NCBI RefSeq assembly: GCF_900103505.1
Contig: NZ_FNIA01000007.1
Location: 124,001 to 188,000 of the forward strand
Reading direction: 5' to 3'
Length of the DNA stretch: 64,000 nucleotides
Source of the DNA: Haloarchaeobius iranensis
Lineage (GTDB): Archaea > Halobacteriota > Halobacteria > Halobacteriales > Natrialbaceae
The notes under the pieces are model-generated. The model worked only from the letters and a program-made list of their open reading frames with translations, searched no databases and was not told the DNA's origin. A program made the position numbers and the translations under genes. This document shows, in pieces, positions 17,364-17,637 of the stretch. Within the stretch, counting starts at the first letter, position 1, and each line of letters opens with the position of its first letter.

Positions 17364-17397
17364 ATCGCTGTCGCTCCTCGTTCACTGGTCCGAGAGA

Positions 17398-17420
17398 ATG
17401 CGCCGGCCGGGATTTGAACC
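17398..17420. repeat. Partial copy of the tRNA-Gly 3' end
   Basis: These 23 bases are identical to 17501-17523, the 3' acceptor and T-arm end of the tRNA-Gly gene (with one flanking base), 103 bases away. The rest of the tRNA is absent here. Such tRNA-end copies are the usual scars of integrases that target tRNA genes, or of local duplication. Confidence 0.85.
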
Positions 17421-17501
17421 ACGGTCGCTCCACTTCGTTCCGCTCCCTGATTCAAACCCCGGTGAGACCCAGACACGCCTCTCACTGCGTTCGAGTCGGT
17501 A

Positions 17502-17572
17502 TGCGCCGGCCGGGATTTGAACCCGGGCCATGAGCTTGGAAGGCTCAGGTCCTACCACTAGACCACCGGCGC
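17502..17572 (-). tRNA. tRNA-Gly (anticodon UCC)
   Basis: A 71-nt cloverleaf on the minus strand. The acceptor stem GCGCCGG pairs with CCGGCGC, followed by discriminator A and no encoded CCA. The anticodon arm reads GAGCC-TTCCAAG-CTC, giving anticodon TCC for Gly GGA/GGG codons. The T-arm GGGTTCAAATCCC is canonical and there is no intron. The TATA-like box sits about 93 bases upstream rather than the usual 30-40, because a segment carrying a 5'-end copy of the tRNA lies between. Confidence 0.95.
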
Positions 17573-17624
17573 TCGCTGACTGCGTTCGCTCGCCCCGAGC
17601 GCCACGTCGCTACGCTCCGTGGCA

Positions 17625-17637
17625 CACCGGCGCTCGC
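17625..17637. repeat. Partial copy of the tRNA-Gly 5' end
   Basis: CACCGGCGCTCGC here repeats 17564-17576, which covers the first nine bases of the tRNA-Gly gene plus four upstream bases (minus strand GCGAGCGCCGGTG). The shift is 61 bases. It places a false tRNA 5' end between the promoter and the real gene. Confidence 0.75.

Follow-up and report, generated by a model that had tools for sequence, protein, structure and literature searches.

Hairpin-forming repeat units at haloarchaeal tRNA 3′ ends, as seen from the tRNA-Gly(TCC) locus of Haloarchaeobius iranensis

The window, a 64,000-nt stretch of the Haloarchaeobius iranensis genome, carries a tRNA-Gly(TCC) gene flanked by partial copies of both of its ends (Table 1). 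The DNA is haloarchaeal, and a pattern scan for relatives of the neighbouring protein yielded a single one, 74% identical in its best segment, in Haloarchaeobius sp. FL176. A sequence-only reading of this DNA had reported a 23-bp exact copy of the tRNA 3′ end 103 bases downstream and a 13-bp exact copy of the 5′ end 61 bases upstream, and both were reproduced: ATGCGCCGGCCGGGATTTGAACC occurs exactly at 17398-17420 and 17501-17523 (spacing 103) and CACCGGCGCTCGC at 17564-17576 and 17625-17637 (spacing 61), the latter repeat comprising only 9 nt of the tRNA and 4 nt of its leader. The two 3′-end copies, D1 within the tRNA and D2 downstream, are separated by 80 bp, and a 19-bp part of the repeat has exactly two exact occurrences in the 3.77-Mb assembly, both at this locus. 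The boundary of D1 was set from the counts of own-end copies and from the start and end positions of D2 across tRNAs. None of three program-made open reading frames scanned over the unit matched a Pfam integrase at E ≤ 0.1. In an Rfam scan of the locus, the gathering score was reached by the tRNA alone, and the unit matched no known structured-RNA family. The downstream copy closes a hairpin-forming unit of ~100 bp and is not an isolated scar.

Table 1. Features at the tRNA-Gly(TCC) locus; positions are those of the window.
Feature	Positions	Strand	Basis
tRNA-Gly(TCC) gene	17502..17572	minus	ARAGORN and Rfam RF00005, 71 bits
D1, last 22 nt of the tRNA (T-loop, 3′ strand of the T-stem, 3′ strand of the acceptor)	17502..17523	minus	
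Spacer linking the tRNA to the inverted arm, with predicted hairpin HP1	17463..17501	minus	fold
I, inverted T-arm copy	17448..17462	minus	pairs with D2 in RNA and DNA folds; unit alignment
Core GGGAGCGGAACGAAGTGGAGCGACCG, drawable with a GNA triloop and GA/GA mismatches	17422..17447	minus	18-unit alignment; also found at other tRNAs
D2, direct copy of the tRNA 3′ end	17399..17420	minus	23 nt including the shared flanking T, 17398-17420
Match of covariance model R1 (whole I-core-D2 hairpin)	17394..17464	minus	88.2 bits, not independent, as this unit (G000:C45:141394-141464) is among the 18 used to build R1
5′ direct copy of leader and tRNA start, GCGAGCGCCGGTG	17625..17637	minus	similar leaders in three related genomes
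Leader hairpin GCCAC-GGAGCGTAGCGAC-GTGGC, between the 5′ copy and the tRNA	17601..17623	minus	

A BLAST search with the region returned partial matches in the same genome and in all 40 relatives searched. Many of these matches are tRNA genes themselves and many others cover only the stretch bearing the copy. We read 20 loci (351-1001 bp) and found this stretch behind tRNAs Glu, Thr, Lys, Gly-CCC, Arg, Ser, Val and Leu; one locus (L080) contains a unit with no tRNA called within its 501 bp. The units present an inverted copy of the T-arm, a core CAGGGAG...CGACCGTG and then the last ~22 nt of the tRNA in direct orientation. Aligned on the tRNA strand, 18 units follow the order GGGATTTGAAnCA - GGGAGCGGAACGAAGTGGAGCGACCG - TGGTTCAAATCCC, after which each unit continues with the local tRNA's acceptor strand. 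Pairwise identity averages 0.88 for the core, 0.43 for the acceptor part of D2 and 0.26 for the 5′ flank. The core value is partly due to the choice of units, all found by BLAST with the window's unit; the locality of the acceptor part is unaffected by it. The arms pair and covary in this alignment, and two sequences show changes on both sides of two core pairs. One way to draw the core is with Watson-Crick pairs alternating with GA/GA mismatches and a GNA triloop closing it; GNA-type loops form stable DNA mini-hairpins. By eye, many trailers read as D1, a first hairpin, I, the core hairpin and D2.

Perfect copies of 20 nt or more from a tRNA's own 3′ end (its last 26 nt) lie downstream of 9 of 44 tRNAs in the window's own genome (G000), 10 of 45 in a genome of the same genus (G001) and 16 of 43 in a genome of another family (G043). 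When tRNAs and trailers were swapped, such copies were found in 0 of 1888, 1 of 1976 and 3 of 1804 pairs, respectively. Given the two counts for G000, the 3′ copy at tRNA-Gly is far beyond chance. At a level of at least 18 of 22 matching bases, copies are present at 15/44, 15/45 and 21/43 tRNAs (2.0, 1.2 and 3.9% of the swapped pairs also reach this level), which means that between a third and a half of all tRNA genes in these three genomes bear a copy. Two or more copies at this level follow 1/44, 2/45 and 10/43 tRNAs, and behind tRNA-Leu-tag of G001 (L206) the tRNA-end copy recurs three times with a period of 26 bp. D2 mostly starts at tRNA base 51/52 and ends at base 73, and at some loci the copy extends into the trailer, by at least 16 nt past the tRNA end at Ser-cga of G001. 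Copies of the 5′ end of at least 12 nt are rare (1/44, 1/45 and 1/43).

The tRNAs of G000 were keyed by sequence (n=44), with two identical tRNA-Asp taken as one; an Ala-cgc call in L051 looks spurious. For G001, 17 tRNA calls of a dense tRNA array, in L160, L165, L166 and L215, were left out (from 62 to 45) of the copy counts and swapped pairs and of the T-arm, strand, mismatch, T4, fold, core and occupied/empty analyses; none of the 17 has a 3′-end copy of at least 14 nt. The array in L215 (G001:C2:921000-926500) is possibly of mobile origin.

The inverted arm is mostly local as well. In 39 of 54 units, four or fewer of the 40-44 other T-arms match it as well as the tRNA's own T-arm does (median 2), and in 14 units none does; it is less local in 15 units, where more than four other T-arms match equally well. 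A strict scan for the direct-inverted-direct arrangement detected 9 of 44 tRNA trailers, against two low-complexity stretches, probably coding, in 464 kb, and shuffled controls gave 0, 0, 1, 0 and 0. The scan misses the window's own unit, the inverted arm of which mismatches the exact reverse complement. In an untargeted hairpin test over 464 kb, GA/GA (with its complement TC/TC) was more frequent than any other mismatch pair, roughly double its level in shuffled sequence, and GNA loops did not stand out. The targeted GNA motif was enriched, with 24 matches vs 4 in the reversed-motif control, two of the 24 being the tRNA-Gly locus itself; 11 of the 24 have complementary flanks of at least 5, vs a mean of 1.8. 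We also noted hairpins of the form GA-NN-GNA-NN-GA with complementary flanks in the background stretches L109, L114, L115, L119, L121 and L125, above the reversed-motif control.

The covariance model R1, built from the 18 aligned units, gave 18 matches in G000, some of them outside the building set. Measured against 44 tRNA places, sixteen lie 32-193 bp downstream of the end of a same-strand tRNA (nominal binomial tail ~2e-45 for a 200-bp window, with matches treated as independent). The remaining two adjoin partial tRNA 3′ ends (13 nt of tRNA-Val-cac in one case, 36 nt of tRNA-Arg-ccg in the other). Next to each there is also an open reading frame resembling the phage integrase family; one of these frames scores narrowly above the Pfam cut-off and the other below it. 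We read these two units as ones that a later integrated element probably separated from their tRNA. All 12 matches of G043 at E ≤ 1e-5 are located 29-545 bp downstream of a same-strand tRNA; two of these tRNAs (Trp with an intron, and Pro) were recognised only on reading the loci. G043 has 23 matches in total at E ≤ 1e-3, with linkage examined in full for these 12; class-wide, the linkage was examined in G000 and for the same 12 matches. A genome search for other copies of the repeat, which the sequence-only reading had proposed, yielded six sites within 3 mismatches of the bare core in G000, all of them tRNA-linked R1 matches. The same reading held that its case would fall if related genomes carried the sequence at unrelated sites with no link to tRNA genes: this was not observed for the core, whereas shorter and looser GNA-type hairpins do occur elsewhere.

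Of 116 genomes of the class, 112 have R1 matches at E ≤ 1e-3. Sampling the phylum gave matches at E ≤ 1e-5 in 19 of 148 genomes, all 19 within the window's order, and the absence outside the order rests on this tally and on the kinship of the 19. Among 73 copies found by the tRNA end alone, and hence free of the BLAST choice, 25 fit a loose pattern for the A-type core. Such cores stand behind 7 different tRNAs of G000 and 9 of G001; G043 has other types too. Lys-ttt of G000 and Ser-tga of G043 have a near-identical core (CCTGCCAGTCGCGCGCAGCG...GCACGTCTGG), and the sets of tRNAs bearing copies differ between genomes.

We then compared loci between related genomes, as the sequence-only reading had suggested for empty and occupied sites. 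At tRNA-Gly-TCC, D2 is present by eye in all four genomes of the genus that were compared (G000, G001, G003 and G005): the unit is intact in G000 and G001, decayed with most of the core lost in G003, and carries a different core in G005. Five occupied/empty cases between G000 and G001 were called by script and yielded no clean pair; three of the five "empty" trailers resemble the start of the occupied unit and are probably decayed units, and the other two cases could not be aligned. The tRNA-Arg-ccg of G001 is followed directly by a trailer that, at the cut-off locus of G000, is preceded by D2. Unit and D2 add 130 bp in G000, and the trailers are identical at 77 of 84 columns, with no similarity beyond the trailer; the difference could equally be a loss in G001 or a gain in G000. 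The trailer shared by tRNA-Val-cac of G000 and G001 has a further copy behind D2 in the second cut-off unit, with 88% identity across 176 bp that include the tRNA end. Both cases suggest that the unit sits between the tRNA end and an older trailer. Searches for a mobile carrier returned none in viral contigs (one exact pattern) or in plasmids and phages (blastn).

Several signals bear on whether the units act as DNA or as RNA. The window's unit folds into the I:D2 hairpin as RNA and as DNA, with modest z-scores of -2.4 and -1.5. In minimum-free-energy folds of pre-tRNAs, from which tRNAs longer than 90 nt were skipped, the 5′ acceptor strand pairs with D2 in 35 of 48, the own acceptor stem is kept in 5 of 48 and the trailer pairs into its own T-arm in 16 of 48. 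D2, which replaces the tRNA's own acceptor strand in these predicted folds, may have an RNA role; however, the preference arises because the copies exist and is no proof of use. The strand with the GNA loop is usually the tRNA-sense strand (55 vs 13 downstream motif matches across the three genomes), which fits an RNA or a strand exposed in transcription. In 46 I:D2 stems we counted 50 G.U and 25 A.C mismatches, with the excess in the first three positions at the core edge; beyond it there are 26 G.U and 24 A.C, and equality is what a DNA-level process predicts. An RNA-strand signature in the stems was rejected, the G.U excess being confined to the core edge. Selection on one part of D2 was likewise discarded, as mismatches per site are 0.087 in the T-arm and 0.092 in the acceptor part (59 copies with at least 15/23 matches, a limit that 16-36% of swapped pairs also pass, so that the weakest rows may be chance). 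A terminator role was rejected as well, with T4 runs within 30 nt at 9 of 51 unit-bearing and 25 of 81 other tRNAs (p=0.105; 0.067 in G000, 0.24 in G001 and 1.0 in G043). The balanced G.U and A.C counts, the even D2 mismatches and the lack of a significant T4 link favour a DNA-level process, with an RNA role kept as a rival.

The 5′ copy belongs to a related but separate and smaller direct-inverted-direct structure, the leader hairpin, and taken alone it is weak evidence; it is below the 12-nt limit for tRNA copies. On the tRNA strand, the leader reads GCGAGCGCCGGTG - TGCCACGGAGCGTAGCGACGTGGC - GCTCGG... - GCGAGCGCCGGTGG. By eye, the copy of the tRNA start and the GGAGCGNAGCGAC hairpin precede tRNA-Gly in all four genomes of the genus compared. 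G001 and G003 share the leader hairpin of the window, and G005 has a stem CCTGC/GCAGG around the same kind of core, GGAGCGAAGCGAC. Across the leader (17564-17637), the core GGAGCGNAGCGAC persists though its stem is replaced in G005. We observed similar 5′ structures before Gly-ccc in G000 and G001 and before Gln-ctg in G043.

The units resemble several known systems in part. Archaeal tRNA-targeted integrative elements, as described in PMC8371274 and PMC9897764, insert at tRNA genes and leave a partial copy with the tRNA whole, and the unit likewise duplicates the tRNA 3′ end directly. It differs from them in being ~100 bp long and gene-free, with a recurring hairpin core, many tRNAs and an inverted as well as a direct copy: no Pfam integrase match was found in three frames scanned over the 80 bp between the copies, and the targets are not few, given the numbers of different tRNAs with A-type cores in G000 and G001. 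The PATEs, MITEs and small mobile repeats of Haloquadratum are, like the unit, short, non-coding, dispersed and built on palindromes or inverted repeats; according to PMC3119063, the movement of A-type small mobile repeats is called enigmatic, PATEs and small mobile repeats are without target duplication, and MITEs are transposon-related. In contrast to PATEs and small mobile repeats, the unit duplicates the ~22-bp tRNA end and its arms follow the target; terminal repeats common to all copies, as expected of PATEs, MITEs and small mobile repeats, are absent, since the arms vary by copy and the core is shared. The unit is also predicted, from folding and covariation alone, to form an imperfect single-strand hairpin. 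Integron cassettes with folded attC sites form arrays in which an imperfect hairpin ends each unit and insertion takes place beside a fixed site. The likeness to them lies in the arrays, the hairpin at the unit end and the fixed site, but the unit is gene-free and its arms match the tRNA separately at each locus. Quasi-palindrome mutation by template switching surrounds a hairpin with local sequence copied in both orientations, inverted and direct, yet alone it would not give one shared core at many loci and species. Among titles and the beginnings of abstracts, we found no description of such units, and an account elsewhere is possible.

Units with shared cores and mostly locally copied arms are linked to tRNA genes, match the local tRNA in D2, occur in tandem at some tRNAs, and decay or change their core between genomes. 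The explanation that we favour, at a little short of an even chance, is that the downstream feature belongs to a family of small non-coding hairpins, found in haloarchaea, that home to the 3′ ends of tRNAs, and the results hint at an undescribed kind of tRNA-homing repeat. Such units would spread at the DNA level, where the near-universal T-arm motif GGTTCRAATCC would provide the same short homology in unit-bearing trailers. A strand carrying T-arm′-core-T-arm would pair at another tRNA, and at the T-loop copying would go back to the local template and repeat the tRNA end; because the end is repeated by copying, the tRNA would be left intact. Fold-back correction inside the hairpin would bring I into match with the local arm. 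Replication template switching, alone or helped by a recombinase, could drive these steps. Our confidence in homing is held back because a single pair supports presence and absence, and loss is possible there; that no enzyme, donor molecule or movement was seen for the units also counts against it. That D2 starts so uniformly, at base 51/52, might just as well reflect a recombinase site.

Alternatively, the units might be miniature non-autonomous integrative cassettes moved by a trans-acting tyrosine recombinase, with the T-loop to the 3′ end (D) as attachment site, the I-core-D2 hairpin as its folded or arm part, D1 and D2 as attL and attR, and tandem units as accretion arrays. D indeed runs from the T-stem/T-loop to, in most cases, the end of the tRNA, integrase targets include the tRNA 3′ end and the T stem-loop (review PMC8371274), tandem copies have differing cores, tRNA-Arg-ccg shows presence and absence, and integrase-like genes lie at partial tRNA ends in G000. 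This alternative nevertheless seems doubtful to us: one att sequence should not yield perfect local acceptor copies at many tRNAs, the inverted T-arm is mostly local too, the Ser-cga copy of G001 runs well beyond the tRNA end, and no carrier appeared in the searches of viral contigs, plasmids and phages. A further, rather unlikely reading has gene-free, integron-like hairpin cassettes anchored at tRNAs throughout the class, inserting into any tRNA's T-arm in the form of folded single-stranded DNA, with the end rebuilt and arrays formed.

It is less probable still that the units are functional pre-tRNA trailers, transcribed hairpins for processing, termination or regulation with D2 as an alternative acceptor strand. 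The tRNA-sense bias of the GNA-loop strand, the pairing of the 5′ acceptor strand with D2 in the predicted folds, the leader hairpin whose core is kept while its stem is replaced, and the presence across the class are all consistent with such a role. However, copies stand at only a part of the tRNAs and at sets that differ between genomes, D2 mismatches are even, there is no G.U excess beyond the core edge, the link with T4 runs is not significant and the G003 ortholog is largely lost. The sequence-only reading took the end copies as marks of integration at the tRNA followed by loss of the element, or of a GC-rich repeat moving into the locus. The involvement of a GC-rich dispersed repeat is supported, and the sequence does behave as an insertion duplicating the tRNA 3′ end; what is not supported is the scar of one lost element. 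The tRNA 3′ end is directly repeated, probable tRNA-targeted integrated elements are present in G000, and a 22-bp partial tRNA duplication has been tied to a Haloquadratum prophage (PMC3119063). Against a scar, the unit is short and structured, the same core recurs with mostly local arms at many different tRNAs, the model matches nearly the whole class and the three frames scanned over the unit gave no Pfam integrase match. The recurring core makes a scar very unlikely. The case raised by that reading is real and is best described as one instance of a haloarchaeal tRNA-end hairpin repeat family.

If the units move, they offer a natural system for how a repeat copies its target's own sequence into its arms. 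Partial tRNA copies from units can also pass for integration scars, and searches for haloarchaeal elements should discount them. Two probable integrated elements were noted in G000: one of ~14 kb downstream of tRNA-Val-cac (L231, G000:C62:31000-46200) and one at a partial tRNA-Arg-ccg (L232, G000:C22:103000-111292). In both, an integrase-like gene adjoins a partial tRNA 3′ end. Finally, the trailers of several G000 tRNAs without a unit (Met, Ala, Val-cac, Tyr and Arg-tcg) open, by eye, a similar small reading frame of the form ~MS[AT]E...GIS (L034, L036, L048, L054 and, more loosely, L050), which is perhaps the end of one family of integrated elements.
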